A DNA stretch of 53,004 bases from positions 1 through 53,004 of the forward strand of contig JACSRI010000069.1 in assembly GCA_014879845.1 (NCBI GenBank). Reading direction: 5' to 3'. The notes beneath the pieces are model-generated. The model saw only the letters and a list, made by a program, of their open reading frames with translations, did no database searches and had not been told where the DNA came from. Source of the DNA: Opitutaceae bacterium (lineage in GTDB: Bacteria > Verrucomicrobiota > Verrucomicrobiia > Opitutales > Opitutaceae). Made by a program: the position numbers and the translations under genes. Positions 6,864 to 37,600 of the stretch are shown piece by piece. The stretch's first letter is position 1. Each line of letters starts with the position of its first letter.

Positions 6864-6865
6864 CC

Positions 6866-12365: not shown

Positions 12366-12576
12366 GACAACAAGCAGGTTCCTCGAAGATGCATCTGCGG
12401 AACGCCGGTTACGATAAGGCCCGGACCGGCCCACGGCAATCGCCGCGACACCCCACGGGGGGCCGTGGCGCCCGGCGTCGATGACGCTGGGCCGGTCGGC
12501 CCGGGTCGGGCGGGCCATGGTGTTTCCTCCGCTGATCCCGTAGGATGGACGCAACAACAACAAACAGACCACATCC

Positions 12577-12888
12577 ATGAGCACCCCCACCCGCTCCATC
12601 TTCTCGGCCTCCATCGGACCCGCCCTCACGCTGTCCACGGCCGTCAGTGCCTACGTCAACGGCCCCCTCGCCGCCATGACGACCGTCGCGTTCGGCCTCA
12701 CGGTTGTCTGGGGCATCGTCGAGATTGCCCTGCTTTCCTACACACCGATCGCCTCGATCGACCTTGACGGTCCGTCCGCGCTCGAGTCCGAGGCCAGTCA
12801 CGATTCCGCCCGTCTCACGGACACGGCGTCCGACAAGATCGTCCCGTTTTCCGACCCGAACCCGGAGCACGCCCGGCGTGCGGCCTGA
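12577..12888 (+). CDS. Small single-pass membrane protein of unknown function (103 aa)
   Basis: I do not recognise it. Residues about 33-54 ('AMTTVAFGLTVVWGIVEIALLSY') form one clear transmembrane helix, and the weakly hydrophobic N-terminus may associate with the membrane. The C-terminal half (55-103) is hydrophilic and rich in Asp, Ser and Glu. The gene diverges from the Ig-protein gene (211 bp apart), has no obvious Shine-Dalgarno sequence (the leader is A/C-rich), and ends in front of a hairpin shared with the convergent GH2 gene. Confidence 0.6.
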   Translation: MSTPTRSIFSASIGPALTLSTAVSAYVNGPLAAMTTVAFGLTVVWGIVEIALLSYTPIASIDLDGPSALESEASHDSARLTDTASDKIVPFSDPNPEHARRAA

Positions 12889-18401: not shown

Positions 18402-19712
18402 ATGGGCACCCCAACCCGCGAAGCCCTGGTGACCGGCGCAGCCGGCTTCATCGGCCGGCGCGTCGTATCGGAATTGTCGCGCCGCGGCTGGCGCGTGCGA
18501 GCGTTCATCCACCATGCGGACGCGCCGGATTTCTCCGCATGCGAGGGCGTCGTGATGCTCGTCGGGGACGTGCGCGATCCCGCCGCGGTGTCGGCCGCCC
18601 TGGCCGGTACTGACGCCGCCATCAGCCTTGCCGCCTGCAAGATGGACGAACCCGAGAGCGAGGCGACCAACGTCGGCGGGGCCCGCCATCTCGTTGACGC
18701 GGCTCGCGCGGCGGGCGTGACGCGGATCATCAACGTCAGCACGCAATCGGCCAAGCTCCCGCGCCCCGGCGTCTACGGCCGCACCAAGCGCGCCGCCGAC
18801 GAGGCCTTTGCCGCGTCCGGCCTCGTCGTGACCACGCTGCGCCCGAGCCTGGTCTACGGTGCAGACGACCCCGGCGTGTTCGGCACGGTCCAGCGTTTCG
18901 TCGATCGGCTGCCGGTGGTACCGGTCTGTGGGGATGGTCGCTGGCTGTCGGCGCCCGTGCACGTGGAGGACGTCGCCCGGGTCATCGTCGATTGCCTCGA
19001 GACGCCGTCCACCGTGGGAAACACCTACGACATCGCCGGCCCCGACCTCCTGCCCTTCGACGCGCTCATCGACCAGATCGCAGCGCACCTCGGACGACGC
19101 CGCCCGACGTTCCACCTGCCGCTCGCCCTCGCGCTGCCGGCGGTGCGCATCCTGCGGACGCTCTGGCCGCGTGCGCCGATCTCCGTCAGCAACGTGCTCG
19201 GCTCCACCCAGGACACCGCGATCGACCCCGCGCCGGCCCTCCGCGATCTCGCCTTCGCACCGCGGCCGCTCGCGCGCGGACTGCACGAGGTTTTTGGCTC
19301 CGCGTCCGATCGCGCCTGGCACGCGGAGGCGCGGGCCCTCGCTCACCATCTCCTGCACGTCGAACCGTCGCCCGAGCTGCGCGATCGCTACATCGAGGCC
19401 GCACGACACCTTTTCGGAGAAACGCCCGGCCCTGCGACGGACTTTGTCCGGCGTCACCCGTGGTCGCTGCGCTGGCTCGAGGCGGCGCAAGGCCTGATGC
19501 GCCCGCGCTGTGGTTTGCGCCAGCGTCTGCTGCTCATGGCGGCGATCCTCGAGGCCACGCCCGAGCACGCCGCCTGGTTCCTCCAGCCGCCGCCCACTCG
19601 CATGCGCCTGTTCGCCGGCCTGGCCTGGCGCGCGTGCGCGAGTGCCGCGAAAATCCTGGGTGGCATGGCCCTGCTGCCGTTTGTCCCCCGAGCCGATGAA
19701 CGTGGACGCTGA
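18402..19712 (+). CDS. NAD(P)-dependent epimerase/dehydratase (extended SDR) with C-terminal extension
   Basis: The protein has 436 residues. A Rossmann fold at about 7-250 carries the glycine-rich loop 'GAAGFIG' at 12-18, an acidic 'GDVRD' near 55-59 and the catalytic Tyr125-x-x-x-Lys129 in 'YGRTK', with Ser113/Thr114 before it. The family acts on nucleotide sugars, sterols or quinone-linked substrates (a NDUFA9-like branch is similar). Residues about 300-436 form an additional helical region, not part of the usual SDR, with a hydrophobic stretch near 410-428. Its last 17 bases overlap the start of the GMC oxidoreductase gene, so the two are translationally coupled. I infer a two-step oxidation or epimerisation of a shared substrate, whose identity is unknown. 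Confidence 0.85.
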   Translation: MGTPTREALVTGAAGFIGRRVVSELSRRGWRVRAFIHHADAPDFSACEGVVMLVGDVRDPAAVSAALAGTDAAISLAACKMDEPESEATNVGGARHLVDAARAAGVTRIINVSTQSAKLPRPGVYGRTKRAADEAFAASGLVVTTLRPSLVYGADDPGVFGTVQRFVDRLPVVPVCGDGRWLSAPVHVEDVARVIVDCLETPSTVGNTYDIAGPDLLPFDALIDQIAAHLGRRRPTFHLPLALALPAVRILRTLWPRAPISVSNVLGSTQDTAIDPAPALRDLAFAPRPLARGLHEVFGSASDRAWHAEARALAHHLLHVEPSPELRDRYIEAARHLFGETPGPATDFVRRHPWSLRWLEAAQGLMRPRCGLRQRLLLMAAILEATPEHAAWFLQPPPTRMRLFAGLAWRACASAAKILGGMALLPFVPRADERGR

Positions 19713-21306
19713 CGTGATCGTGGTCGGCTCGGGCCCGGCGGGCGCGCAGGCGGCCGAGACGCTCGTGGAGCAAGGATGTCGTGTCCTCATGCTCGATACG
19801 GGCACGACCGCGGCGCCCGGCACCGCGGCGCCGCGGGGCGCCTTCCTCGACCTGCGCCGACACGACCGGGCACAGCATCGCTACTTCCTCGGCGACGACT
19901 TCTCCGGCGTGCCGCTCGCACGGCTCGGCGCGGCGCCCCAGGTCACGCCGCCGCGCCGGCATGTGCTGCAGTTGGCTGCCGGATACGCCGGCATCCTGGC
20001 TGAAGACTTTGCCGCCCTCGAGAGCCATGCGCTCGGCGGACTCGGCGCCGCGTGGGGTGCGGTGAGTTTCCCGTTCACCGACGGCGAGCTGCGCCAGGCC
20101 GGCTTCACTCCGGTGGAGCTGCGACCCGCCTACGAACGCGTGGCACGGCGCATCGGCATCAGCGGATCCCACGACGACACGGCGGCCTGGGTCGGCCCGC
20201 TCGAGTCGCTGCAGCCCCCGCTGCCCCTCGACCACAACGCCTCCGCCCTGCTCGCCGCCTACACGCGCCAGCGCTCCGCGCTGCACCGCCGGCGCGTGCG
20301 TGTCGGGCTACCGATGCTCGCGGCCCTCTCACAGCCGCTCGACGAGCGGCCGGCGCACGATCTCGCCGACATGGACTTCTGGGGCGACTCCGGCGGGAGC
20401 GTGTATCGCCCCGAGCTGACGGTGCGGCGGCTGCAACGACACGATGGGTTCCGCTACGCCCCGGGATGGCTGGTGACGCGTTTCGCCGAATCGTCCGACC
20501 GCCTGGTCAGCGTCACGGCAAGGGCGGTCGCCGACGGCGAGGAGCGAACCTTCAGCGCGCGGCAGGTGTTTCTCGCCGCCGGCGCGCTCGGCACCACGCG
20601 CATCGTGCTCGAGTCGTTCCGCGAGATCGCCCGCGAAGTCCCGCTCGTGTGCAACGCGCACCTCTACGTGCCCTGCGTGCACCTGCGCCAACTCGGCCGT
20701 CCGCACATCGAGCGCTGCCACAGCCTTGCGCAACTCACGATGCTGCACGACCCGACCGGCGACAGCAGCGCGCTCGTGCAGGCGCAGATGTATTCGTATC
20801 GCTCGCTCCTGCTCTTTCGCCTGCTCAAGGAGTCGCCGCTGCCCGCGCGCGACTCCCTCTGGATCATGCGGGCGTTGGCGCCGGCCTTTGTCATCTGGGC
20901 GCTCGAGGAGGAGGATCGTCCGGCCGCCGGGCGCTTCTGTCGTCTCGCGCCGCGCGCCGACGGCGGCACGGTGCTCGAAGTGGTGGCACCCGATTCCCCC
21001 GACGTGGAGGCACGGAAACGCGACAGGCAGGGCGCGCTGCTGTGGGCCATGCGGCGGCTCGGGGCGTGGCCGATCCGTCGCGTTCACTCCGGCCCGGGTT
21101 CGAGCCTGCACTACGGAGGCCAGTTCCCCATCAGCGGGCGCGACGAGCCGTTCACGACCGACACCGCGGGTCGGCTGCACGGCACGCGCCAGGTCTTCAT
21201 CGGCGACGGCTCGGCTTTCCGTTATCTGCCGGCGAAGGGCCTGACCTTCACGCTCATGGCCAACGCCGATCGCGTCGCGTGCGGGATGGTCCGGTGTGGA
21301 CGTTGA
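19696..21306 (+). CDS. GMC-family FAD-dependent oxidoreductase
   Basis: The protein has 536 residues. The N-terminal FAD-binding fold is 'DVIVVGSGPAGAQAAETLVEQGCRVLMLD' (6-34), with GxGxxG at 12-17. An 'AGALGTTRIVLES' segment (near 295-307) matches the GMC middle signature. The C-terminal GMC domain has His472 in 'GSSLHYGGQ', and 'VFIGDGSAFRYLPAKGLTFTLMANADRVA' (near 501-529). GMC enzymes oxidise alcohols, sugars or sterols, passing electrons to oxygen, quinone or a cytochrome. The gene overlaps the upstream SDR gene by 17 bp and the downstream STT3-like gene by up to 11 bp, so the three form one operon. No Tat signal is visible, so it is probably cytoplasmic or membrane-peripheral. Confidence 0.85.
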   Translation: MNVDADVIVVGSGPAGAQAAETLVEQGCRVLMLDTGTTAAPGTAAPRGAFLDLRRHDRAQHRYFLGDDFSGVPLARLGAAPQVTPPRRHVLQLAAGYAGILAEDFAALESHALGGLGAAWGAVSFPFTDGELRQAGFTPVELRPAYERVARRIGISGSHDDTAAWVGPLESLQPPLPLDHNASALLAAYTRQRSALHRRRVRVGLPMLAALSQPLDERPAHDLADMDFWGDSGGSVYRPELTVRRLQRHDGFRYAPGWLVTRFAESSDRLVSVTARAVADGEERTFSARQVFLAAGALGTTRIVLESFREIAREVPLVCNAHLYVPCVHLRQLGRPHIERCHSLAQLTMLHDPTGDSSALVQAQMYSYRSLLLFRLLKESPLPARDSLWIMRALAPAFVIWALEEEDRPAAGRFCRLAPRADGGTVLEVVAPDSPDVEARKRDRQGALLWAMRRLGAWPIRRVHSGPGSSLHYGGQFPISGRDEPFTTDTAGRLHGTRQVFIGDGSAFRYLPAKGLTFTLMANADRVACGMVRCGR

Positions 21307-23758
21307 CGCAGCCATGCGGGCACCGAAGGATCGACCCGTGATCTCGCCTGCGCGCCGCTACGCGCCCACGCTCGCCTGGCTCGTGCCACTGATCGTCGCC
21401 CTGGCTTTCGCCGGCTGGGATGCGCGGGGCCGCGTGCAGCGCTGCCTGGAGTTGAGCGGCCACTACGGCGTCGCCGTCAACGCGCCGGCCCTCGATGCCG
21501 GGTCGACGACCGGATACGCGCTGGAGCGCCGGAGCCTGATTCCCCCGGTCACCGCCCCGGATGCGTTGCACTGGGTGATGCAGACCCAGGCGATGTCCGC
21601 GCGCGGCGACTGGCGCGTCAGGCATGTCGCCTACGACAACGCGCCGCCCGGACGCCCCGTCCACTGGGGCGCGCCCTATCGCTGGTGGTTGCTCACTCTC
21701 GCGCACATCGATCGAGTCTGCACCGGCGCACCTCTGCCCCTCGCGATCGAGCGCAGCGCGCTCTGGGCCGGACCGGTCCTCCTCGGCCTGGCCCTGATCG
21801 CGGTGATGCCTTTTGTCGCACGCCGGTTCGGTGCACTCGCCGCGCTCGTCGTCGTCGCCGGGTGGCTCGGGTGCGAGCCGTTCTCGGTCCAATTCATGGC
21901 GGGCAACGCCGACCATCACGCGCCTGTCACCCTCTGTGCGATCGCCACCGTGCTGCTGCTCATGCGCGGCAGCGACGTATCCGACTCACGCCTCCCGCAG
22001 TGGCACGCGGCGTCGGCGCTCGCCGGTGCGTTCGGTCTCTGGCTCAGCGCCGCCACGATGGTGCCGGTGCTGCTCGGGATCGCGCTCGGCGGCGGTGCCG
22101 CCGCCCTGCTCGGCCGAGGGTCGCGTACTCCCGCCGAAGCCTGCGCTGCAGCACGGGCCTGGCGTTGGTGGGGCGCCATCGGCGGCGCGGGCGCGATGCT
22201 GGCGTGGGCGATTGAATACCTGCCCGGCCACGCGGCCTGGCGCCTCGAGGTGATTCACCCGATCTACGCGCTCGCGTGGTGGGCGGGCGGCGAGCTGTTG
22301 GCCGCGATCACGCGCCTCTGCTGCACGCCACGCCCGCGGCTGAAGCCGCGCGACATCGCCGGGGCGCTCGTCGCGGCCGCCGTCGCGGTGTTGCCCGGCG
22401 TGGTGATCGCCATCCGGGGCACGGCGGTGTTTCTTGTCGCCGATCCGTTCCTGAGCGCGCTGCACGGCGACTACATCGCCGAGTTCCAGAGTCTCGGTCG
22501 ATTCCTGGCCGGACGGACGCTCGATCTGGCGCTCGTCGGGCGCTTCGCACCGGCGCTGCTGTTTATACTGGCGCTCATCTTCCTGGCGCGCCGATGCCGC
22601 ACCTCCGCCGCGCGGCACGAACTCGCGGTCGCGGCAGGGGCGGCCTGCACCATGTTCGCGCTCGCCGTGGTCCAGATCCGCTGGTGGGGAGCCGCGAGCG
22701 GACTCGGCCTGCTCCTCGTCGCCGCCGCGCTGCGCACGACCGGGGGAACGCGCCGGATGTGGCCCACTGCCGCCGTCGCGGCGCTGGCGCTCCTGCCCGG
22801 ACTCATCCACGCCGCGCGTTCCGCGTCCCTCGCGGCCGAGCCCACCGCGAGCGACGTTCGCCGGCTCGCCGAGCGCGATCTCGCCCATCGCCTGCGCCTT
22901 CGCACGGCCGGCGAGCCGCTCGTCATCGCCGCGACACCGGAAGAGACCACGAGCCTGATCCATTTCGCCGGCGCGCGCGGCCTGGGCACGATGTATTGGG
23001 AAAACATCGACGGCCTCAAGACGACCGCCGCGCTCCTCGGCGCCCGGACTCCCGACGCGGCACGCGCGATCGCCGAGCAGGCCGGCGTGACACACCTCGT
23101 GCTCTTCTCCTGGGATCCGAGCGATGCCTCGTGCGTGCGCCTCCATCGTGGGCTCACGCCCGCGGCGCCCGTGCCCACGGACGCCTTCGTCGAACAGCTC
23201 AAGCACGGCCGGGTCCCGCCCTGGCTCAAGCCGCTGGCCCACCGCCTGCCCGAACACCCGCTTCTTCACGGCGAGGTCGTGCGCGTGTTCGAGGTGGTGG
23301 CGTCGCGGCCCCCCGCGCGCGTGACCGTCGACGCCGCGGCGTACCTGATGGAAATGGGCCGCACTTCCGAGGCGGGCGCACTCGAGCCCGCGCTCGCGAC
23401 GTTTGCCGACGACCTCGCCGCCCAGGCGACACTCGCGATGATGCAGGCGCGCCGCAAAGATGCGCGCGCGTTCACGACCACGTCCGGGCGTGTCTCCGCC
23501 CTGCTCGAGGGCGGCGGCGCCCTCCCTCTCGAGGATCACCTGCGTGTGGTGACCGTGCTCGCGATTGCCGGAAGTGAGCGTCGCGCCGCGACCGAATTGA
23601 GCCGCGCCCTTGCCAGCGCAGACGCTCGTGCGATCCGCCACCTGAGCGCAGGCTCGCTCTCGGACCTGCTCGAGTTGACCGCCGCGCTGGCTGTTCCGTG
23701 GCCGGACAACACGCTGCGCGCCCTCGCCGAGGGGCTCACGCCGGGCGGCGCCCGCTGA
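21296..23758 (+). CDS. STT3/oligosaccharyltransferase-like GT-C membrane protein
   Basis: About 820 residues (814 if the ATG at 21314 is used; neither start has a strong ribosome-binding site). Many hydrophobic segments lie between residues 22 and 510, in the manner of a GT-C glycosyltransferase. The first large loop has 'DALHWVMQTQAMSARGDWRV' and 'NAPPGRPVHWGAPYRWW', resembling the 'D-YYHxR ... PxGR' loop of COG1287 proteins. 'GNADHHA' (Asp206, His207, His208) matches their DHH motif. Residues 530-820 are soluble, with helical repeat-like segments ('AAYLMEMGRTSEAGALEPALATF'). Such enzymes transfer lipid-linked sugars to exported acceptors. It ends 9 bp from the convergent TMTC-like gene. Assignment to GT-C is fairly firm; the acceptor is unknown. 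Confidence 0.7.
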   Translation: MDVDAAMRAPKDRPVISPARRYAPTLAWLVPLIVALAFAGWDARGRVQRCLELSGHYGVAVNAPALDAGSTTGYALERRSLIPPVTAPDALHWVMQTQAMSARGDWRVRHVAYDNAPPGRPVHWGAPYRWWLLTLAHIDRVCTGAPLPLAIERSALWAGPVLLGLALIAVMPFVARRFGALAALVVVAGWLGCEPFSVQFMAGNADHHAPVTLCAIATVLLLMRGSDVSDSRLPQWHAASALAGAFGLWLSAATMVPVLLGIALGGGAAALLGRGSRTPAEACAAARAWRWWGAIGGAGAMLAWAIEYLPGHAAWRLEVIHPIYALAWWAGGELLAAITRLCCTPRPRLKPRDIAGALVAAAVAVLPGVVIAIRGTAVFLVADPFLSALHGDYIAEFQSLGRFLAGRTLDLALVGRFAPALLFILALIFLARRCRTSAARHELAVAAGAACTMFALAVVQIRWWGAASGLGLLLVAAALRTTGGTRRMWPTAAVAALALLPGLIHAARSASLAAEPTASDVRRLAERDLAHRLRLRTAGEPLVIAATPEETTSLIHFAGARGLGTMYWENIDGLKTTAALLGARTPDAARAIAEQAGVTHLVLFSWDPSDASCVRLHRGLTPAAPVPTDAFVEQLKHGRVPPWLKPLAHRLPEHPLLHGEVVRVFEVVASRPPARVTVDAAAYLMEMGRTSEAGALEPALATFADDLAAQATLAMMQARRKDARAFTTTSGRVSALLEGGGALPLEDHLRVVTVLAIAGSERRAATELSRALASADARAIRHLSAGSLSDLLELTAALAVPWPDNTLRALAEGLTPGGAR

Positions 23759-23767
23759 GGCAGCCAC

Positions 23768-25786
23768 TCAGGGCACGGGGCCGAGGCGCCCGATTCCGTC
23801 GCGCGCCGGCCGGTAGCCGGGATCGAGCCGCAGCGCGGCCTCGAACTGCGCGCGCGCCTCGCTGGGTTTCCCGATCAGGACCAGCGCGTATCCGAGATTC
23901 GTATGCGTGCGCGGATCCGGCGCGAAGCGCAGGGACTCGCGAAACGCCGCGGCGGCCTCGTCGGTCCGCTGGGAGAGGAGCAGCGCGTTGCCGAGATTGG
24001 TCAGGGCGGCGGCGTAGTCCGGCCGCAGGCGCACGGCCTCGCGCAGGGCGGTGATCGCCTCGGGCAACCGACGCGCCTGCGCGAGCGCGTCGCCGAGGTT
24101 GAAGAACGCCTCGGCATCCGCCGGGCTCAGCCGCGCCGCCTCCCGGTAGTGCTCGATCGCCTCGTCCAGGCGGCCGGTGCGCAGGAGCTGCCGGGCCAGT
24201 CCGGTGTGCGCGGGCGCGAACTGCGGCGCCGCCGCCACCGCGCGGGTGTACCACGCGATCGACTCGGTCTGGGCGCCGGTCTCGGCCAGGGCGTTGGCGA
24301 GGTTGAGCTGCGTGAGCACGCTGTCGGGCGCGAGCCGCAGCGCCTCGCGGTACATCCCGATCGCCTCGCCGCGCCGGCCGGCGAAGTCGAGGGCGACAGC
24401 GAAGTCGTGCGCCACCTCGGGCACGCCGGGCTGGAGGCGCCACGCCTCCTCGAGATGCGGGACGGCCTCGGCGTGCCGGAAGACGCGCGAGAGTTCGGCG
24501 CCGAGGTTGCCCTGGGCCCGGGCATTGGCCGGCATCTTTCGCACCGTGTCCGACCAGAGGCCGACAGCCGTGCGGTAGTCGGCATTGCGCGCGATCGAGC
24601 CCGCGGTGAGCGCGACGAGGAGCGGCCCGACGCCGAACCACATCCGGTGCCCGAATCTCCGATACGTCCCTCCGACAACCACGACGATCAGCGCGGCCGC
24701 GGGCAGATACATGCGATGCTCAAACATCGCGTCAGCAATGGGCACAAAACTCGAGGTCGGCGCGAGCACACCGAGGGCCGCCAGCGCCGCAAAGGCCGCG
24801 AGCGAACGTCGGACCAGACCATAACCGACCGCGCCCAGCAACGCCGCGATCACCGCCGCCTGAGGGAGCACGGCCGCCCACGTCGGCTGCGGCAGGTTTC
24901 TCCCGTAGTCGAAGACCAGCGACACCGGCCAGATGACCAGCCGCAGGTAGTGCACGAGCGCACGGCACTGCAGCAGCGTGTATTCCCACGGGGTGAAACC
25001 CGAGTCGCCGGCCCAGGTGCCGCCGCGGTTCTGCGTGCCGAGGATGAGCCAGGCGAGCGGCAGCCACGAGGCCACGAGCGCGACGTGGAACAGCCCTCGC
25101 CGGCGCCAGACCTCGCGCCACGACCCGGCCACGAACAACCGGTCGTGGAACGCAAGCAGCACGGGGATGGCCGCGCTGAACTCCTTCGCTCCGACACCGA
25201 GCCAGCAGGCGGCGACGGCGGCGCCGAGCCAGCCGCGCGGGCGGGTCGACTCGAGGCTGCGCAGCCAGGCGTAGAGCGCGAGCAGCACAAAGAGGCTGCC
25301 GAGGCCTTCGGCGCGCTGGGAAACGTAGGTCACGCCCGCCGTCATGAGCGGATGCGCGACCCACAGCAGCGCCGTCGCCCCGGCGATCGCGCTCGCGTCA
25401 CCCGGCTGCGCGACCCGCCGCGCCTGCACGAGCGCGCGGCGCACCACCCCGAAGAGCGTGAAGGCACACAGGAGATGGACGGCGAGATTGACGACGTGGT
25501 AGCCGCGCACATCCGTACCGTGCATGGCGTAGTTGAACGCAAATGACAGATTGGTCAGCGGACGCCCGGTGACGGGCAGGCCGTGGATCGGCGGCGACAG
25601 CACCTCGCCGGGCGGCCAGAGGCGCCGGATCGTGGGGTTTTCCAGGATCGACCCGCGGTCGTCGAAGACGAGCTCCGCCTGAAACGTGCCGTGGTAGGCG
25701 ACCAGTGCGGTGAGCACGAGCGCGGCGAGCCACCAGCCGACTCGCACCCCGCCAACCGGAGTCGGTGCTGGATGCGGGGTCTTCAT
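23768..25786 (-). CDS. TMTC-like membrane protein with TPR tail, copy 2
   Basis: The protein has 672 residues. Residues 1-395 hold about ten transmembrane segments; the first loop has 'ELVFDDRGSILENPTIR' with Asp42-Asp43, then 'GRPLTNLSFAFNYAMHG' and 'GYHVVNLAVHLL', a layout matching animal TMTC proteins, which are O-mannosyltransferases of cadherins. Residues about 400-665 are eight or so TPR motifs (for example 'AEAFFNLGDALAQARRLPEAI'). It is often auto-annotated merely as a TPR protein. It overlaps the stop of the upstream paralogue by 4 bp (ATGA), showing translational coupling. The inferred role is sugar transfer from a polyprenyl-phosphate donor to exported proteins; no activity can be proven from sequence. 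Confidence 0.8.
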   Translation of the reverse strand: MKTPHPAPTPVGGVRVGWWLAALVLTALVAYHGTFQAELVFDDRGSILENPTIRRLWPPGEVLSPPIHGLPVTGRPLTNLSFAFNYAMHGTDVRGYHVVNLAVHLLCAFTLFGVVRRALVQARRVAQPGDASAIAGATALLWVAHPLMTAGVTYVSQRAEGLGSLFVLLALYAWLRSLESTRPRGWLGAAVAACWLGVGAKEFSAAIPVLLAFHDRLFVAGSWREVWRRRGLFHVALVASWLPLAWLILGTQNRGGTWAGDSGFTPWEYTLLQCRALVHYLRLVIWPVSLVFDYGRNLPQPTWAAVLPQAAVIAALLGAVGYGLVRRSLAAFAALAALGVLAPTSSFVPIADAMFEHRMYLPAAALIVVVVGGTYRRFGHRMWFGVGPLLVALTAGSIARNADYRTAVGLWSDTVRKMPANARAQGNLGAELSRVFRHAEAVPHLEEAWRLQPGVPEVAHDFAVALDFAGRRGEAIGMYREALRLAPDSVLTQLNLANALAETGAQTESIAWYTRAVAAAPQFAPAHTGLARQLLRTGRLDEAIEHYREAARLSPADAEAFFNLGDALAQARRLPEAITALREAVRLRPDYAAALTNLGNALLLSQRTDEAAAAFRESLRFAPDPRTHTNLGYALVLIGKPSEARAQFEAALRLDPGYRPARDGIGRLGPVP

Positions 25787-27777
25787 GGACGAACCTCCGT
25801 CTCCGCTCCCCCGGCACGCAGGATCGCCCGCGCCTGCTCGAGGTTGGCGCGCACCGCCGCGTCGCCGGGACGCTGGCGCAAAATCGTCTCGTATTCGGCG
25901 ATCGCCTCACGCGTACGACCCGCGACGAGCAGGGCATTCGCGAGATTGGCGCGGGCCGCGACGTGCGCGGGCGCGTGGCGCACGACCTCGCTGTAGGCCG
26001 CGATCGCCGCCGGAAAATCTCCGGAACGCGCGAGCGCGTTGCCGAGGGCGAACCGAGCGTCCACCGAGTCGGACAGACCCGCCACGGCACGCTGCAACGG
26101 CGCGACCGCATCCGCGGGTCTGTCGAGGGCAAGGAGCGCGAGCCCGAGGTTGAGTTCCACGTCGACGGCTCCGGGCTGGAGCCGCAGCGCCTCGCGATAC
26201 TCGGCCACCGCCTCGCCGGGACGGCCGAGGCGCACGAGGGTGTTGCCCAGGTTCAACCGCGCGTCGGCCCAGGTCGGCTCCAGCCGCACGGCCGCGCCCA
26301 GATGCTCAAAGGCTTCCGCGGATCGTCCGAGGCCGGCCAGCGCGACGCCGAGGTTGTAGTGCGCGGAAGCATGATCTGGATACAAACGCAGCGCCTCGCG
26401 GAAACTGGCCATGGCCTCCTCGACACGCCCCTCCTGGGCGAGCGCGGTGCCGAGATTGGTGTGGGCGCGGGTGTTGCCGGGATGTCTTGCGACGGTGTCG
26501 GCCCAGAGGTCGACCGCGGTGTGGTAGTCGCGGTTGCGGGCAAACGTCGTCGCGCCGAGCGCGACCGCCGCCGCCAGACCACACACAAACGCGACACGCG
26601 GGCGCAACCGACTCGCCCCGTGCGCCGCGAGCGTCACGAGCGCCACGAGCGGCAGGTACATGCGGTGCTCGGCCACGGTCTGGCTCGTCACGGGAAACAC
26701 ACTCGAACTGGGTGCGAGGAAGAGGAAAAACCACGCTCCGAGAAATCCCGCCGCCGGGGCACGCACGATCGCCCATGCGGTCGTGCCGAGCAGCGCCACC
26801 ACCAGCAGCGCCTGCGCGCCGACCTCGCGGAGTCCAGCGACGAGCGAAGTGCCGTAGTCGAACGTCAGCCCGACCGGCCAGGCCGCGAGGCCGAGGTAGC
26901 GCACGATCGCGCCAGCCTGGGTCAGCAGGTAGTCCCAGCGTGAGGTCACGACGGCAAATCCGGCTGAGCCACCGCGGCTGTCGGCACCGATGATCAAGAC
27001 CGCGAGCAGCACCCATGAGGCCGCGTGCGCGAGGTGCCATCGCCAACGGCGTTTCCACGCCTCGCGAAACGAGCCGCTGACAAAGGTGCGATCGAAGAGG
27101 AGGACGACCAGCGGCACGACCGCCGCCGTCTCCTTGGTCGCCACGGCGAGAAAACACACCACGACACCGAGGCCGTGCCAGCGCCAGGCCGCGGCGGGCG
27201 CTCGCGCCTCCACGCCGCGCACGAAGGCGTAGAGACAGAGCAGCGCCAGGCACGCGGCGAGCGACTCCGCCCGCTGCACGGTGTAGGTGACGGCCGACGT
27301 GGTGAGCGGGTGCACGCCCCAGAGGAGTGCGACACCCGCGGCGATGAGTTCCGGGGACGCGGCCACGACCACCTCGGCCGGGCGCCCCCATGTGAGAACG
27401 CGACGTACGAGCGCGAAGACAAGGAGTGCCGCGGCGACGTGGATCGCGAGATTGGTCGCGTGGTAGCCCTCCACGGCGAGGCCGCCGACGGCGTAGTTGA
27501 TCGCAAATGACACATTGAGCACCGGCCGGCCGCCCACCGTCTGGCCGTCGGCGTCTGGCGGCGTGAGGACACCGTCGGAAGGGCTGAGACTGCGGATAGT
27601 GGGGTTGTCGACGATCGAGCCCTGATCATCGAAGACGAACGGCCCATGCAGACTGTTCGCGTAGGCCGCGACGATCGCGAGGACGACGAGCGCGATCCAT
27701 CCACCGACGGGCACGCGCCGCGCGGCCGGCGGCCGGGCAGGCGGGCGGTGCTGGGGTCGCTTCGACATCGGGCGCAT
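25783..27777 (-). CDS. TMTC-like membrane protein with TPR tail, copy 1
   Basis: A 664-residue paralogue of the downstream gene. The cytoplasmic start is basic and proline-rich (1-24), followed by a transmembrane helix (27-42) and 'PFVFDDQGSIVDNPTIR' with Asp50-Asp51, then 'GRPVLNVSFAINYAVGG' and 'GYHATNLAIHV'. About ten membrane segments continue to about residue 405, and roughly seven TPRs fill 409-650 ('AHTNLGTALAQEGRVEEAMASFREALRLYPDHA'). The start could be ATG 27777 or ATG 27768; upstream in-frame sequence to 27990 looks non-coding. The gene is 209 bp downstream of the GT2 gene and overlaps copy 2 by 4 bp. The two copies are clearly diverged, so they may prefer different acceptors. Confidence 0.8.
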   Translation of the reverse strand: MRPMSKRPQHRPPARPPAARRVPVGGWIALVVLAIVAAYANSLHGPFVFDDQGSIVDNPTIRSLSPSDGVLTPPDADGQTVGGRPVLNVSFAINYAVGGLAVEGYHATNLAIHVAAALLVFALVRRVLTWGRPAEVVVAASPELIAAGVALLWGVHPLTTSAVTYTVQRAESLAACLALLCLYAFVRGVEARAPAAAWRWHGLGVVVCFLAVATKETAAVVPLVVLLFDRTFVSGSFREAWKRRWRWHLAHAASWVLLAVLIIGADSRGGSAGFAVVTSRWDYLLTQAGAIVRYLGLAAWPVGLTFDYGTSLVAGLREVGAQALLVVALLGTTAWAIVRAPAAGFLGAWFFLFLAPSSSVFPVTSQTVAEHRMYLPLVALVTLAAHGASRLRPRVAFVCGLAAAVALGATTFARNRDYHTAVDLWADTVARHPGNTRAHTNLGTALAQEGRVEEAMASFREALRLYPDHASAHYNLGVALAGLGRSAEAFEHLGAAVRLEPTWADARLNLGNTLVRLGRPGEAVAEYREALRLQPGAVDVELNLGLALLALDRPADAVAPLQRAVAGLSDSVDARFALGNALARSGDFPAAIAAYSEVVRHAPAHVAARANLANALLVAGRTREAIAEYETILRQRPGDAAVRANLEQARAILRAGGAETEVRP

Positions 27778-27906
27778 GCTGGATGGGCGGCGACACGCGT
27801 GCAACGATCGACCCTCCCTCACACCGGGTAACCGCTGCAGCCAGGCGCCGTCGCGTTTCTGTAGATCCGCGCTCCGGCGCGGCCGCGAATGCCTCCACGT
27901 GGTTGC

Positions 27907-27926
27907 GGCGGTGCGGGAGCACCGCC
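27907..27926. terminator. Hairpin between the GT2 and TMTC-like genes
   Basis: GGCGGTGC (27907-27914) and GCACCGCC (27919-27926) pair perfectly around a 4-nt loop. No T-run follows, so termination would be weak; it may set the ratio of GT2 to TMTC-like transcripts. Confidence 0.35.
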
Positions 27927-27986
27927 CTCCGTCCTGACATGCGATCGCAGGAAACCACACTCTCCACCACATCACATCCGATCGCG

Positions 27987-28709
27987 TCAACGCGTGCGGG
28001 CGAAACGCACGCGGAGCATCACCGCCACGGCGACAAGTCCGTCGCGCCAGCGGATCTTCTTGCCCTCGGCCAACGTGCGTGGGCGGTAGGAAATAGGCAC
28101 CTCGCGGATGGCACAGCCGCGCCGCAGGAGGCGACCGGTGAGCTCGGCGCAGAAGGCGAACCCGTCGCAGCGCAGGCCCAACGACCGCATCACATCCGCG
28201 CGCACGATCTTGAAGCCGGTCGACTCGTCGGTGAGATTCGCCCCGAAGATCAGGTTGGCGGCGGCGCTGAGCAGCCGGCCGCCCCAGTAGAAGGCAAAGC
28301 TCGAGCGCGGATTCGCGCGCAGATTGCGCGAGCCATAGACCGCATCGATGCGCGAATCGGCAAACGGCGCGAGCAGCGCGGGATATTCCGCCGGGTCGTA
28401 CTCGAGGTCGGCGTCCTGCACGAGGATCACGTCGCCCGTCGCGCCGGCGAGCCCGGTCCGGATCGCCGCGCCCTTGCCGCGCGACTGTTCATGGCGCAAG
28501 GCGCGCACGAGACCCGGACGCTGTCGCACGATCTCCGCCAGGATCGAGGGTGTGGCATCGCACGACCCGTCGTCGACCACGAGGATCTCATGCGCGAGCC
28601 CGGTGTCGGCGACGCGCGTGACGACGGTGGCCAGCGTCGCAGCCTCATCGCGGGCGGGGATGATCACGGAAAGGCGCACAGGGAGCGGGTGTCTCGCATG
28701 GACACGCAT
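27987..28709 (-). CDS. GT2 glycosyltransferase, polyprenyl-phosphate sugar synthase-like
   Basis: A 240-residue GT-A fold enzyme. It opens '[18 protein letters not shown]' (13-30) and has '[16 protein letters not shown]' (42-57), '[30 protein letters not shown]' with the metal-binding Asp99-x-Asp101, and '[10 protein letters not shown]' near 160. This is the dolichyl-phosphate-mannose or polyprenyl-phosphate-glucose synthase type, making a lipid-linked monosaccharide on the cytoplasmic face. No C-terminal membrane helices are present, as in the short DPM1-like enzymes. It lies upstream of two TMTC-like genes, whose animal relatives use dolichyl-phosphate mannose, a suggestive pairing. The start codon is 2 bp past the T-run of the receptor-gene terminator, and its only good Shine-Dalgarno sequence lies in the terminator arm. 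Confidence 0.87.
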
Positions 28710-28710
28710 C

Positions 28711-28747
28711 AAAAAGAGACTCCCCCACCCTGCGGTGGAGGAGTCTC
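28711..28747 (-). terminator. Intrinsic terminator of the first TonB-receptor gene
   Basis: Minus-strand hairpin with 14-bp arms (28734-28747 and 28716-28729, one mismatch) around a 4-nt loop, followed at once by TTTTT (28711-28715). It lies 33 bp past the receptor stop codon. Its distal arm contains GGGGGAG, 10 bases before the GT2 start codon. Confidence 0.9.
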
Positions 28748-28780: not shown

Positions 28781-31700
28781 TCAGAACGTGAACGTCGCCG
28801 TGAGGTAGACCTGACGGGGGTCCACGATACGGTAGGCGGTCACCGTGCCGTCGTAATTGTACCCGACCGGCCGCAGTCCTCCGCTTTCGAATACGTCGCG
28901 GATGTTGAGCTGGACCTTCATGCCGTACTTGTTGTCGAACACCCGGGTCGTGTAGGAGGCCCAGAAGTCGAAGTAGGTCTCGGCCTCGACATAGATCGGG
29001 CGATCGAGGTCGGAGACGATGAGCTGACCCGCGCGAGCCGGATCGTCGACTTCCTTGCCGTAGTACCCCGAGATGGCCTCATCCTCCCAGCGGAATGCAC
29101 CGCCGATGGCCAGGCCCTTGAGGCGCCCCTCCTGGAACGCATAGTTCGTCAGGATGTTCGCGCGATAGGGACGCTGATTTGGCGTGGGCAGGCCGCTGAG
29201 CGCCTCGGCCTCGGCACGCTGCGTGAGGATGTTGGCCTCGTAGTAATCCTGCGGATTGCGTGAGCCCGGATTGTTGTCGCTCCAGAGATAGCCCGGGAGC
29301 GTGTTGCCGAATCCGTATCCATTCCAGAAGTTCGACAGGTCGGCGGCACGGCCTGTCCCTGACGAGTTGTAGTTGAGGGTTACATTCGTGAGATCGCGCC
29401 GATCTGCCGGCGCCGCGTCGATCCAGGCCTGTGGCACGCGCACCGTGCGCCAATACTCTTCACGACCTCCCGAGGCACCCGGCAGGACCCAGGCCGCCCA
29501 CTCCTGGTTGATGCCGGAGTAGATGGTTTCCTGCTTTGAGGCCGTGAACTTGAGGTTCCAGTTCGGCAGCGGATTGTAGATGATTTGGAACTCCATGCCT
29601 TCGGCCGCGATGTCCTGCGTGCCGCGGACGTTGAGCCCCTGATCGGCCGGCCAGTTGATCGTCATCTCCGGGCCGCCCCAGCCAAGGTTGAGCAGTTCCT
29701 CGATACGCGCCTCCTGCGCGGCGGTGCGCGGACGCACCGTGGCGTTCATGAAGTTCACGCTGGTGTCCTCGCCGTCGAGGTAACGCACCACAGCCTCGGC
29801 CCAGTTGCGCACGTAGGTCTGCTCGAGGAAGAACGTGCGGTCCATGAGCGTGTTGCCCACGCGCGAGTCCTTCGACTCGTTTTCGAACCAGTTGAGGCGG
29901 GCAACAAGCTTGTTTTGAAACATCGATACGCCGATGCCGTAGTCCTTGCCGGAGCCGGCCGGGTCGGGCAGCGCGTTGCCGAAGAAGTCGTGTGAAACGG
30001 TGGGCGGAGCCGGGAAGTTGGTCGCGTCGTTGTAGGTGAGGCTCAACTCGCCGCCGTCCCACTTCAGAACCTTGGCTACGACGCCAAAGGAACGTGTATC
30101 CACTTCGATCTCCTGCTTCGGTCCCCAGAACTTTTTGTAGATGTCGAGATCGTAGGCGAGGCCGTTGACGAACCAATCCGCCTGCGCAAGGTCAACCGGG
30201 GTCGTGCGCGACGAACTCTTGTCCCGACGGATTCCGCCGGTGAAGATGAGCCGGTCGCCCAGCAGGTAGCTCTGGATGCCGAGCGTCATCGAATCGAGGA
30301 CGCGCTGGTTCGCGAGGGAGCCCGCCCACCAGAGTTCGGTGCTCATCTCGACGTTGGCGTTCTCCCAGACGCCGGTGTTCCAGTTGTAGGTCGGGATCGC
30401 GAAGTCCGTCTGGCCTCCGCCACCGTAGACGCCGGCGTTGGCCCAGTAGCCGACGTTCTGCGTGATCTGACCCACGGGTCCGGTCACGGTGACCGCGGCA
30501 TTCGGAGCGGTCGGTGTGTCGGTGCTGGTGACGTTGATCGAGGCGGGATGCCCGAAGTAATACTGGCGCAGGCGGGAGGCATTGCCGCCGTTCTGCGCGT
30601 AGCTCCACGACCCGCCGGCGGCCGGCGGGAAATAGCGCGCATCACCACCGGTGACGGCCTGACGTGAACGCGTCTGGTACTGAATGCGGTCCTGGCGGGT
30701 GTAGATGCCCATCAGGCGATGGCGACCGATCCACCGCGTCCAGCCATCCTTCTTGGTGAAGTCGAGGTCGTAGGCGAGTCCGGCCCGGATGTTGTCGTTG
30801 TCCTCCGGGTTGGTGTAGGTATCGACCTCGAAGTCCTCCAGGTAGGGGATTCCGAAATACGGGTTGGCCGTGCCGTCGGCGAGATACAGGTTGGTGTCGA
30901 CCCAGAGACGCGCGCCGGTCTGCTGGCCCACGTTGTAGTTGTTCATCGCATCGGCGCGCTGGCTGAACCATCCGAGCTGGAGGTTCAGGTTCGAGAGGAT
31001 CTCCTGCGAGAACTCGATGTTCATCGTCTTCACAGTGAGGTCGCCGGAGTTCGGCGAAGCCGTGTTGATCTTTTCCCAGTCATAGATCGATTTGTCGTTC
31101 ACGCCGGAGAAGATGTAGTTGCTCGGGATGAGCGGGCGGCCATCGGGAAGGAACGGCTGGCTGGCCCAGGCTGTGGACCGCGTGTTGCGCCCACGCTCGA
31201 GGATGCGCCATTGGGCGGCGGTGCGGTTGGTGATGTTGGCCGCCGTGTTGGGCAGTCCACCCTGCGCCACCGTACCAACGTTGACATTCCACGGTAGGTA
31301 TTGGGCGCTGCCCTGGCTGATCGCGAGCGGGCTCAGGCCGCGGCTCCACTCCAGCGATCTGACGAAGAGCGGGTTGGTCGCACCGTAGCCGCCACCACCA
31401 CCGCTGGTCACGGGCACCATGCTGAAGCCTGCCGTCATCATGTTCGCGGCGCCGTTGATCGTGTTGGCCCCGCTTGCATGCGTCGGGGAGTTGTAGGTTC
31501 CGGCGGTCGACCCGGAGTTCACCATGCCGCCGGGGGCGTGAATGGCGGCATTGAAACCATCTGAGACGGCGGAAAGCACATACGGTCCCTTGCGCTCTCC
31601 GGTGTCGAGGTAGGTGACCATACGCGTGACCGGGTTCCAGACGGGCCGGCCATCCTCGATCCAAGGCGAGACGTAGTCCTGCGGCGTCAGGTAGTTGGCT

Positions 31701-32647
31701 CGGCGGCTGAACGAGTCGTAGTACTCGTAGTTCGCATTGATCGTGGTCTTCGGGAACGGCTTGAAGGTGATCGCGGCGTAGTAGCGGTCGGTCCACTCAC
31801 CCGAGGGCTTGCGCTGGAAGCCGCGCTTGTCGTAGAGGGCCGCTCCATACACGGCGAGCTTGCCATCGATGAGCGTCTTGTTGCCGGAGATGCTCACGCG
31901 CTCGGAGCCCCAGCTGCCGATGCGCATCTCGACCTGGCCGCCGTTCTTGTCGACCACGGCGGTGGCGCGCGACTGATTGACGATGCCGGCCGGGCTGCCG
32001 AAGCCGAAGAGCATGGAGTTCGGGCCGCGGTTGATCTCGACGCTGTTCGTGTTGTAGGTGTCGAAGGGCAGGCGCTGGACGGTCGGATAGTAGTCGACGG
32101 TGTTGTCGACTGAATCCAGGCCGCGCACGCGGGTGGCGTTGGCCGCGGTCCAGACGGTGCCCGGATCGTTGGCGAAGCCGTGGCCGGCGCCCACGTCGTG
32201 GACGGTGCCGCGGTTGACGACGCCGGAGCCCTCGGTGCGGGTGTAGGTGTTGAGACCCTCGGTGTTGGCCTCATACATGAACACGTCGTGCACGTCGACC
32301 GACGCGGTGTCGACCAGCTGCTGCTTGGTCACGACGGTGATCGAGGAGGCGAGATCGGAGACGTTGGAATTGAGGCGGCTGCCGGCGAGGGTGTTTTCAG
32401 CGTAGTATCCGATATCCTTGGACGCATCGACCACGAAGGGCGAGAGCGTCACGACATCCTCGTCGGTGTCCGCGGCCGGGGCCGCCGCGACCGGAGCGGT
32501 CGCCGGAGCAGGCGGGTTTTCCGGGGTGTCGGCGGCAGGTTTGGCTGTCTCCTGCGCGATGGCGCCAGTCAGTGTCACCGCGAGCGATCCGAGCAGGACC
32601 ACGAGGCGGCGCACGCATGCACTTTCTGCGTTTTGGTGTCTGGTCAT
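28781..32647 (-). CDS. TonB-dependent outer-membrane receptor (1288 aa)
   Basis: Outer-membrane transporter for a TonB-energised ligand, probably a glycan or siderophore. Signal peptide at 1-31 (likely cut at 'AIA-QE'); a Pro/Ala-rich linker at 32-62; then '[16 protein letters not shown]' and '[13 protein letters not shown]', the entry typical of Opitutaceae receptors; plug domain at about 85-230 ('[31 protein letters not shown]', '[22 protein letters not shown]'); beta-barrel to the C-terminus, ending 'YLTATFTF' with the terminal Phe needed for barrel insertion. No N-terminal carboxypeptidase-like or secretin domain is present. It is a paralogue of the receptor at 34633. The start at ATG 32647 is fixed by the signal peptide and by AGGA five bases upstream. 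The substrate cannot be told. Confidence 0.92.
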
Positions 32648-34632: not shown

Positions 34633-37600
34633 TCAGAAGTCGAACTTCGCGGACAGGATGAAGCGCCGCGGATCGATGATGCGGTACGAGTTGGGCGAGC
34701 CGTCGAGGTTGACACCCACGACCTGGAGGTCGCCGCTCTCGGCCACGTTCTCGATGTTGAGCTGGACCTTCATGCGCACCTTGTCGTCGAAGATCTTGGT
34801 CGAGTAGCTGATCCAGAGATCGAGGTAGGTGTTGGCCGAGTCGTAGATCGGACGAGTCGTGTCGGAGAGCACCAGGTCAGGCGAACTGGTGGCGGGGTTC
34901 GGCTTGCCGTAGTAGCCGATGATCGACTTGTCCTCCCAGCGCAGGCTGCCACCCACGCCGGTGCCACGCAGGGTGCCTTCCTGGAAGCTGTAGTTGCTGA
35001 GCAGCGTCCAGCGGTACTTGCGCTGCCCTGGAGCGGCCTGGCCCTCGAGATCCTTGTCGGCGAGCTCGTTCGGGACCACGACGTTGTTGTAGTAGGTCCG
35101 CACGCTCTCGTTGCCATTCACTTCCCCAAGGTAGACGGCGGTGGTGTAGCCGTAGCTGTCCCAGAAGTTGGTCAAGTTGACCTCGCGACCGTTGTCGCGG
35201 GTGTAGGTGGCCAGGCTCTGGTACTGGGGCAGGAGGAAGTCGGCCGCCTGGGCATCATCCCAGACCGCAGTCCGCTCGGCCTTCCAGGCATCGAACTCGC
35301 GGAGCACATCGGAATAGACCGTCTCCTGCTCGCCGAAGGTCGCCTTGATCGACCAGTTGCGGGTCGGGTTGTAGGTCACCTGGACCTCCATGCCTTCCGC
35401 CACGGCGGAACGGGTCGAGGCGATGCTGCCGACTTCGCCGTAGTAGTTCCACGCCTGTCCCCAAATCACCTCGGTGGCGTCCCGAACGGCCTCCTCCTCG
35501 TCAGTCGAGAGTGCCAGGTTCCATTGATCCACATCGATCGGATCGTGACCCATGTTGATGCGCGCAATGGTCCGGGCCCACTCGCGGAACTGGTCGCGGT
35601 CGACCTGGTCGCGGAAGCGGCTGAATGCGACACTGTTCGCGGTGCGCTCATACATGTTGGACGCCTCGAACCAGTTGATCCGGGCGAACAGCTTGTTGTC
35701 GAAGAGCGAGAACTGGAAGCCCCAGTCTTCGCCTTCTCCGGTCGGCTTCGGGAGCGAGTTGCCGAAGGCATCGACCTGGGCCGAGAGCGGCGGATTGAAG
35801 TTGTCCGACTTGTTGTAGCTGAAGCCGAGGCTGTTGACGAACTGCCAGAACTGCGAGCCGTCCTGGGCGCGACGCTCGATGCTGCTCCAGCCCAGGAACG
35901 GCCGAAGGACGGCGCCGTAGGTGGACGTGTCGCCGCTGAGCTTGTCCCAGTAGTTCCAACGGTTGAGCACGGTTTTGGTCTGGTAGACACCGTTGACCCA
36001 CTTCTCCGGGTTCGTCATCGCGCGAGCGATCTCTGGACCACCGGCATAGGCGCGGAGGACGTCGTTGCTGGTGTTGCGAGCCTGATAGTCGTCGTTGCGG
36101 AAGCCAATCGTCGTGATGAGCCGGTCGTTCCAGAGATGGCTGGTGAGGCCGAAGCTGAGCGAGTCGACCTCGCGCTTGCTGGCGCCGGTGGAGGCATCCA
36201 TGTCGATATACTCGTGCGTGATGCCCATGTTCTGCCAGGAGCGGGAATCGAAATTCCAGACCTGGATATCACCGGTGGCGCTCTTCGCGTTGCGGTAGCG
36301 GCCGGAGGCACGGGTGACCGCACCCGTCGTCGCGTCGCCCGGCGCGGCGAGGTAGTAGAAGCGCTGGGCGCCGCGGTTCTGGTAGCTCCAGCCGGTCGGG
36401 GTGCCGTCAGCGCGATTGTTCGGGTTGGCCGACCAGAAGATCATGCCATCCTCGGCCTCGTCACTGTCGGTGACGTACATGCGCTGGCGGATGAGCGTGG
36501 TCTTGTCCAGCTGGCGGGAGAAGACGCCGAGCAGCTGATGGCGACCAAGCCACTTGGTCCATCCTTCGTTGCGAGTGAAGTCCGGCGTGTAGGCCATCAT
36601 GGCGCGCACGTTGTCGTTGACCCGCTCGTTGATGAACTGGTCGGGATCGAAGTCGGTCATGTAGGGCAGGCCGAAGTACGGATTGGCCCGGCCGTCCGGC
36701 AGCCTGACGTTCGTGTCGACGAAGAGGGTCGCGACGTTGAGCTGCGACACCGTGTAGTTGGAGAGCGACTCGTAGTCCTGGTAGAACCATCCGGCGGCGA
36801 AGGTCAGGTTGTCCAGGAGCTGCTGCTCGAACTCGATATTCAGCGTGGTGTTGTCCGCCTCGCCGAAGTTCATCGAGAGGGTGTTGATCTTCTCCCAGTC
36901 GTAGATGGATTTGTCCGTCACGCCCGGGTAGCGGTACTGGCCGACACCGTTGCCGGTGGCCGTCCAGAAGTTGGATACGGTCCAGGACGTGTCGTAGGCC
37001 GCGGCATTGACCGGGTCCTGGAAGATGGTGTTCTCCGAGGCCGGGTAGACCGGGGCGTTGGCCTCGGGATTCGTCGCCGTGCCGTAGACCTGGCGATAAC
37101 GCTCGACCTGCGGGTAGAACCAGTTGGCCAGTTCACCCTGGTCGACCTGCTGGAGCGGGCGCGAGGTGGTGATGAGACCGAGGCCCGGGGTGTAGAGGGC
37201 CGACCGGGTGTCTGTCAGCGCGCTCGCACCGAAGATGTTGACGCCATTGTACTGGGTCCGCGCCGCGTTCCAGAGCGACGCATTGTAGTTCGGCAGCGAC
37301 TCGATGTAGGCGCGTGTCTCCAGAATGCGCGGGTTGGGAACGGCCGTGGAGCCGGCACGCATGGCGAGGACGCCGGCATTCTGGCCGTTGCGGGTGATCT
37401 GACCGGTCGTCGGATCATAGGTCGGCGATCCGGCGCTGCGCCACTGCGTGACGGAGTCGCGCGGGGTGAGCGTATTGGGACGACTGTTCTCGTTGTGGAA
37501 GTCCTCGATGCTGGCCCGCAGCGTCGTCTTGGAGAATGGCTTGAAGGTCAGCGCGCCATACATGCGGCGCGTGTCGTCGTAGGAGGGCTCGCGTTCGAAG

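Follow-up and report, generated by a model that had tools for sequence, protein, structure and literature searches.

A 53004-nucleotide stretch of an Opitutaceae genome (contig JACSRI010000069.1 of assembly GCA_014879845.1; hereafter, the window) encodes two proteins, A and B, whose kinship with the animal TMTC enzymes is very probable, and TMTC-like genes of this kind are linked non-randomly to genes for TonB-dependent receptors. Protein A (25783-27777, minus strand, 664 aa) combines a GT-C membrane domain at residues ~24-415 with a tetratricopeptide repeat (TPR) tail, its key residues being D50-D51, R84, E171, K215, D307-Y308, and E370-H371-R372, and the gene for protein B (23768-25786, minus strand, 672 aa) starts inside the final 4 bp of that for A. 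An earlier note on this DNA had proposed a TMTC-type glycosylation locus composed of A, B, an STT3-like GT-C protein, and a GT2 glycosyltransferase, with an SDR and a GMC oxidoreductase in its context. The reading frames and coordinates of the first four genes were borne out, as was the core idea of a TMTC-like GT-C and TPR architecture with catalytic motifs, but neither GT2 nor the SDR/GMC pair proved to be a general companion of such genes. What is new and testable, beyond that note, is the link to receptors.

Sequence searches of solved structures found no GT-C relative of the TMTC-like domain, either with the single sequence or with a 23-row profile (one unrelated match at 0.068); the relation to GT-C enzymes emerged through the predicted fold. 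The structure predicted for residues 1-415 of A had a pLDDT of 88.6 and a pTM of 0.89 and contained the GT-C core. In structure alignment, all of the 50 rows listed were GT-C enzymes or kin such as PIG-U, the top matches being Pmt4 (Z 20.2), STT3 (Z 20.2), and ArnT (Z 19.1-19.3); this listing aligned Foldseek's own ranks only, and the absence of TMTC from it carries no meaning. In the Foldseek search itself, the sole match below 0.001 was ArnT with undecaprenyl phosphate. The GT-C fold of B is based on the 43% identity of its membrane domain to that of A. The helices of the A model would be consistent with the 11 spans of TMTC, placing the positively charged N-terminus inside and the TPR tail in the periplasm, as judged from helices and charge. 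Many TPR models matched the tails of both A and B, confirming that both proteins carry them. It is highly likely that the TMTC-like proteins are GT-C glycosyltransferases, with activity predicted.

The family is large. The genome from which the window comes holds 8 TMTC-like matches on 5 contigs, i.e., six besides A and B, and matches at E 1e-5 were found in 21 of 38 genomes (own included), frequently in tandem and with up to 25 per genome when fragments are counted. For a view of the neighbourhoods, we used 79 named loci, for which the best 80 were kept out of 362 places confirmed in the collection of genomes; by title, these are mostly Opitutaceae and other Verrucomicrobiota metagenome-assembled genomes, together with 5 Myxococcales and 1 Pirellulales. 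For cluster counts, the genes were divided by bit score into group A (74 genes in 50 clusters) and group B (35 genes in 35 clusters); among 116 TMTC rows, 7 that were short or were a further fragment of a gene already represented were excluded from these counts, as were 4 second fragments among 34 STT3-like rows and, for some genomes lacking TMTC-like matches, the GT2 rows; contig ends were ignored.

Conservation was read from two alignments, namely A1, with 23 rows from whole genomes, including four distant paralogues and not picked by the EHR motif, and A2, with 45 rows comprising the window and the named loci. The FDD, GRPxxNxSF, and GYHxxN motifs described earlier are present and conserved in the aligned relatives. 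In A2, D50, R84, P85, and N109 are found in 45/45 rows, D51 in 44/45, and N88 and H106 in 43/45, and in A1, D50, D51, P85, N109, and K215 are invariant in 23/23 rows, so that the acidic pair of the first loop is conserved. Beyond the motifs of the earlier note, QRxE, KE, FDY, and EHR are also conserved, with E171 and K215 kept in 45/45 and D307 and Y308 in 44/45 rows of A2. The EHR motif is kept in 19/19 group-A rows of A1, and the four distant rows have DRY or DHF.

Profile searches placed the proteins near the TMTC and PMT families only in part. At E up to 1, PF08409 (DUF1736) had no match in the own genome or in the isolated membrane domains, and gave weak matches in 8/45 relatives of A2 (best 0.0021) and 2/23 rows of A1, and PMT_2 matched 10/45 relatives of A2 (best 2.3e-8) and 8/23 rows of A1. 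Protein B matched PMT_2 weakly (20.5 bits against a cut-off of 26.1), and the profile scans gave no PMT-family (PF13231/PF02366) match for protein A. Thus, the expected relation appeared as weak matches in some relatives, but A and B missed the DUF1736 and PMT cut-offs. When 194 genomes across the phylum were scanned, PF08409 found matches in 4 at E 0.001, and 2 of these were above the cut-off; the curated DUF1736 model is thus of little help in recognising such proteins in these bacteria. Since this profile misses its cut-off, we use the label "TMTC-like" and not TMTC.

The likeness to animal TMTC1-4 (CAZy family GT105, O-mannosyltransferases of cadherin EC domains) lies in the GT-C membrane domain followed by C-terminal TPR. 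The motifs of these enzymes are a DD in external loop 1 (EL1), an acid in EL2, a lysine in EL3, DW in EL4, the arginine of AER in EL5, and SHKSYRP (PMC7801869). With the equivalences assigned from motif order and context instead of superposition, the EL1 DD corresponds to D50 and D51, the EL2 acid to E171 (Glu here, Asp in TMTC1), the EL3 lysine to K215, and the EL5 arginine to R372, which lies before transmembrane helix 10 (TM10). The proteins differ from TMTC in having DY for the EL4 DW and GRPxxN for the EL1 SHKSYRP, in a DUF1736 score below the cut-off, and in the receptor genes beside them. Full-length prokaryotic TMTC homologues, e.g., AMJ42_05695, have already been published, with the same domain plan and uncharacterised, and the passages on them give neither a genomic context nor a client (PMC7801869); the Opitutaceae genes come with a recurring neighbourhood. 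In the literature searched, bacterial TMTC-like proteins were known by sequence, with no assigned role found, and DUF1736 turned up in a single paper. These searches, none of which paired the two terms directly, brought up no description of TonB receptors as neighbours of TMTC-like genes.

In the window, two receptor genes lie upstream of the GT2 gene and on the same strand: TonB-dependent receptor 1 (28781-32614, minus strand; Plug 27.7 bits, cut-off 23.9) and TonB-dependent receptor 2 (34633-38250, minus strand; 42% identical to receptor 1, Plug over the cut-off). The 79 named loci contain 88 TMTC runs with 159 flank sides, and with an adjacent bin of -400 to 600 bp and 30 receptor queries chosen independently of adjacency, TonB-dependent receptors adjoined the runs on 23 of the 159 sides, in 20 loci (one receptor of L050 counts for two runs, and one gene of L099 is counted as two pieces). 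Further out, there were 10 receptors in 916 side-kb, so that adjacency was 13-fold higher, with a binomial p of 1.6e-12 that is overstated because the named loci share ancestry and are not independent. An earlier count, for which the queries were partly picked for adjacency, also gave 23 of 159 sides, in 21 loci and with a partly different set (the second set gained L099 and lost L063 and L106 relative to the first). In this first set, the receptor preceded the TMTC-like gene on the same strand 12 times and followed it once, with 5 divergent and 5 convergent cases. When homologues of receptor 1 were searched in 24 genomes (own included), 6 of 14 at E 1e-80 or better had a same-strand TMTC-like gene directly downstream; thus, such homologues stand immediately upstream of TMTC-like genes in other genera, whereas in the window the GT2 gene intervenes between receptor 1 and TMTC-like A. 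These counts show that the linkage of TMTC-like genes to receptor genes is non-random, and they reinforce the earlier suggestion that the TonB receptors are sensible test acceptors.

The receptor-adjacent state also follows the phylogeny of the enzymes in part. In a quick tree of 129 rows, supported by SH-aLRT only and with receptor labels taken from the first query set plus three rows assigned by hand, 16 changes are required to explain receptor adjacency, which 26 rows show, and starred branches force at least 8 of them; shuffles had a mean of 24.0, and 0 of 500 were as low. One clade is Oar-adjacent in 7/7 rows (support 86), and another is adjacent to receptors of the receptor-1/2 type in 5/6 rows (support 97). 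The three scanned Oar-type receptors, as we take them to be, carry a CarboxypepD_reg domain, which is a beta-sandwich; TonB receptors themselves are beta-barrels.

A third gene recurs in this arrangement. The protein encoded at 21296-23758 (plus strand, 820 aa), whose gene converges with that of TMTC-like B at a distance of 9 bp, matches the STT3 family PF02516 at 26.7 bits (cut-off 24.5), which upholds its description as an STT3-like GT-C neighbour. Its AlphaFold model had a pLDDT of 63 and was built on 4 sequences, and its structural matches are treated as a lead, as Z scores under ~13 may, according to the tool's own note, reflect a common helical arrangement: residues 16 to ~670 or 785 matched DPY19, AglB, STT3, and ArnT at Z ~12-14. 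In the same low-confidence model, residues 519-670 matched the AglB C-terminal globular domain (Z 11.4) and residues 672-815 matched TPR proteins. Hence, from the model, the protein is probably an STT3-like enzyme carrying its own TPR-like tail. It shares with STT3/AglB/PglB a PF02516 score over the cut-off and the AglB-like C-terminal domain, and it differs from them in the TPR-like tail and in an EL1 Asp that is not universal in its family. The family has GTxYWEN at a possible position of the WWDYG motif of STT3. STT3-like genes lay within 3 kb of 4 of the 50 group-A clusters, window included (expected 0.11), and the order of receptor, TMTC array, and convergent STT3-like gene was found in three genera besides that of the window, at L127 (G017), L130/L050 (one place, G023), and L132 (G003), the last of which carries a TMTC-like gene of the distant group. 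A similar cassette at L131, also in G003, has 3.3 kb between the TMTC and STT3-like genes. As a separate observation, own contigs C183 (L181) and C156 (L182) carry two further STT3-like genes, at distances of ~2 and 3.6 kb to a long TonB receptor gene, with no TMTC-like match within the stretches searched.

The GT2 gene (27987-28709, minus strand, 240 aa; PF00535 100.8 bits) had as its best solved-structure match dolichol monophosphate mannose synthase (5mlz, 2.1e-16), in agreement with its assignment to the polyprenyl-phosphate-sugar synthase type. It reached no curated equivalog cut-off, the best being AglJ at 99.1 against 325 bits. Its start is uncertain, as most homologues align from residue ~10-12, and translation may begin at a more internal codon near 28679. 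The likeness to dolichol monophosphate mannose synthase, together with the 213 bp that separate this gene from the TMTC-like A match, would suit a strict O-mannosylation locus, with polyprenyl-phosphate-mannose supplied by the GT2 and used by the TMTC-like enzymes to modify Ig-like proteins such as that at 10866-12638, which has one clear Ig_3 domain (51.1 bits). Tight adjacency was also seen in G005 (115 bp), L051 (23 bp, convergent), and L053 (1 bp, with a weak GT2 match), and these cases, with the window, may be meaningful because the shortest tree path from TMTC-like A of the window (winA) leads to L051. However, GT2 lay within 3 kb of only 2 of the 50 group-A clusters (expected 0.60, Poisson p 0.12) and beside 2 of the 159 flank sides, little above the rate further out. 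On these counts, the GT2-TMTC synteny anticipated by the earlier note failed as a general rule, and GT2 was dropped as a defining partner. Taken with the missed equivalog cut-offs, and with an Ig protein that is at least 11 kb from the TMTC-like and GT2 genes and had no tblastn match in 22 loci searched, this makes the strict O-mannosylation locus very improbable. GT2 homologues with 39-45% identity occur in 20 of 24 other family genomes, including genomes without TMTC-like matches, and the own genome holds a second homologue (43%, contig C39); therefore, the lipid-sugar donor could come from outside the locus.

Upstream of the STT3-like gene stand an SDR or NAD-binding protein (18402-19712, plus strand) and an FAD-dependent, GMC-like oxidoreductase (19696-21306, plus strand) whose gene overlaps the STT3-like one. 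Of the operon described earlier, the SDR is real; the oxidoreductase has a clear FAD-binding domain, but its assignment to GMC is weakly supported (PF05199 at 19.3 bits, below the cut-off of 24.6). Neither SDR nor GMC had a tblastn match at E 1e-6 in the same 22 loci, 12 of which have an STT3-like match. The claim that this operon belongs to the system was given up, and both genes were dropped as system parts and taken as local passengers.

Other neighbours were seen on the same contig and around other TMTC-like genes. The window carries two tandem T2SSE type II/IV secretion ATPase genes (5481-7942), and on own contig C213 (L009, 3397-13399), a TMTC pair is flanked on one side by a prolyl-oligopeptidase-like gene, past which there is a TonB receptor, and on the other by the F and E genes of type II secretion. 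In four Myxococcales-labelled loci (L057, L067, L075, and L118), the gene preceding the TMTC-like gene encodes ~960-980 aa, and the one scanned (L118) combines a sugar-binding-protein-like sensor domain, a histidine kinase, and a receiver. One protein cluster recurs near TMTC-like genes in L072, L074, L080, L098, L106, and L116, apparently a common neighbourhood, and in the two scanned (L072 and L106) it reads as the large ribonucleotide reductase.

From these data, we infer the topology, the enzymatic activity, the lipid-phosphate donor, the protein acceptor, the receptor client, and the identity of the sugar. In the proposed mechanism, a GT2, local or elsewhere in the genome, would load a sugar onto polyprenyl phosphate, and the sugar-lipid would be flipped to the periplasmic side. 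Inner-membrane TMTC-like GT-C enzymes would then transfer the sugar to an exported protein, as animal TMTC/PMT enzymes do. The first-loop aspartates would work at the site of acceptor and metal, the lipid phosphate would be held by the arginine preceding TM10, and the TPR tail, on the periplasmic side, would select and hold the acceptor. The acceptors would be exported envelope proteins, with the TonB-dependent or Oar-type receptors encoded beside the enzymes as the best candidates, and the STT3-like protein would act as another lipid-sugar transferase or as a partner of the TMTC-like enzymes on shared clients. The animal enzymes are described as modifying beta-strands of Ig-like cadherin domains (PMC11292533), and the general O-glycosylation of Bacteroidota is reported to occur at (D)(S/T)(A/I/L/V/M/T); the common theme with the latter would be periplasmic O-glycosylation of exported proteins (PMC8550257). 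That A and B are lipid-phosphate-sugar GT-C glycosyltransferases with a periplasmic TPR, modifying envelope proteins and neighbouring receptors first, is a reading to which we give about even weight.

Several observations count against it, in addition to the shared ancestry of the loci and the low GT2 counts given above. The presence of EHR in 45/45 rows of A2 is partly selection, because EHR belonged to the DNA pattern that retrieved the named loci. For the STT3-like protein, PF02516 at E 0.1 gave no match in three scanned relatives, and the EL1 Asp present in the window protein is missing from several of 11 family members. As for the receptors, 59 of the 79 named loci have none in the adjacent bin (some flanks being short), and seven loci (L069, L071, L085, L089, L090, L096, and L097) show an alternative neighbourhood with common upstream genes and no adjacent receptor found, where the gene directly before TMTC is presumably, from its N-terminus, a threonine synthase. 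Within the own genome, 3 of 5 clusters have a receptor within 5 kb (expected 0.52, p 0.016), a weak test that includes the window, and on the tree, other rows adjacent to receptor-1/2 types, including winA, fall outside the receptor clade. The Ser/Thr/Pro content of the linker before the TonB box was not raised beside TMTC genes (p 0.34; Thr alone 0.11) in a comparison of 17 receptors (TMTC-linked Plug-type and receptor 2, with Oar-type excluded, and with the L127 row in the wrong frame) with 13 of 29 others, the remaining 16 having no usable motif.

The ends of the receptor genes weigh in the same direction. All 14 same-strand gaps tested between a receptor and a TMTC-like gene contain a terminator-like hairpin behind the receptor, and one is also present in the window gap between receptor 1 and GT2 (28716-28747, minus strand; 14 pairs, then TTTTT, resembling an intrinsic terminator) and behind receptor 2; the observed score was reached by 0 to 2 of 60 shuffles per gap. 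Typically, the stop codon is followed after ~30-60 nt by a strong hairpin with a T-run. This receptor-end pattern was seen at 28716-28747 and downstream of 34633 in the window, and in L050, L056, L112, L115, L120, L127, and L140, and several loci have a receptor-end hairpin with a GAGCTCCCTC-type stem. Enzyme expression would thus need read-through or own promoters; a sigma-70 scan found no promoter, which says little for promoters outside its consensus. Given these hairpins and the divergent or convergent position of 10 of the 23 adjacent receptors of the first set, a common receptor-enzyme transcript is not established.

The strong hairpins, the several orientations, and the size of both gene families would also be expected if adjacency were a genomic side effect, with both families duplicating and settling in permissive places, e.g., behind receptor terminators. 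We consider this improbable, since the flanks of the same loci are without enrichment, two TMTC clades track a receptor type, the same-strand TMTC-like gene lies downstream of the receptor 12 times and in the reverse order once, and the three-gene arrangement that ends in an STT3-like gene is found repeatedly, the TMTC-like gene in the G003 case being one of the distant group.

A different concern is the acceptor. ArnT, the nearest single Foldseek match to A, is a bacterial enzyme with an undecaprenyl-phosphate-sugar donor; it has no TPR tail, and its acceptor is lipid A. As the fold cannot distinguish acceptors, and as the family has expanded in the way that envelope-glycan enzymes can, the GT-C enzymes might act on a lipid or polysaccharide, with the TPR serving only for docking and receptor adjacency reflecting a shared niche or regulation. 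This we regard as unlikely, although less so than the side effect, because TMTC enzymes, which likewise join a GT-C domain to a TPR tail, have proteins as their known acceptors (PMC7801869, PMC11292533), and because TMTC-like genes show the 13-fold linkage to receptors while GT2, the one sugar-lipid gene type tested, is not enriched. We moderately favour a protein as the acceptor of the TMTC-like enzymes, and the neighbouring receptor is proposed as the client only tentatively. More doubtful still is a modular system in Opitutaceae, in which individual TonB-dependent or Oar-type receptors would have a neighbouring GT-C-TPR enzyme of their own, sometimes with an STT3-TPR enzyme, glycosylating them in the periplasm on their way to the outer membrane.

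As a recurring neighbour with statistical support, the receptor offers a specific client for testing. If true, a receptor-dedicated system would explain the large paralogue arrays and the enzyme clades that match receptor types. If the receptors are glycosylated by dedicated enzymes, this would extend the protein glycosylation of Verrucomicrobiota by one kind, it would inform the TPR-based client choice of the animal TMTC enzymes, and it would provide bacterial enzymes for work on structure and mechanism.

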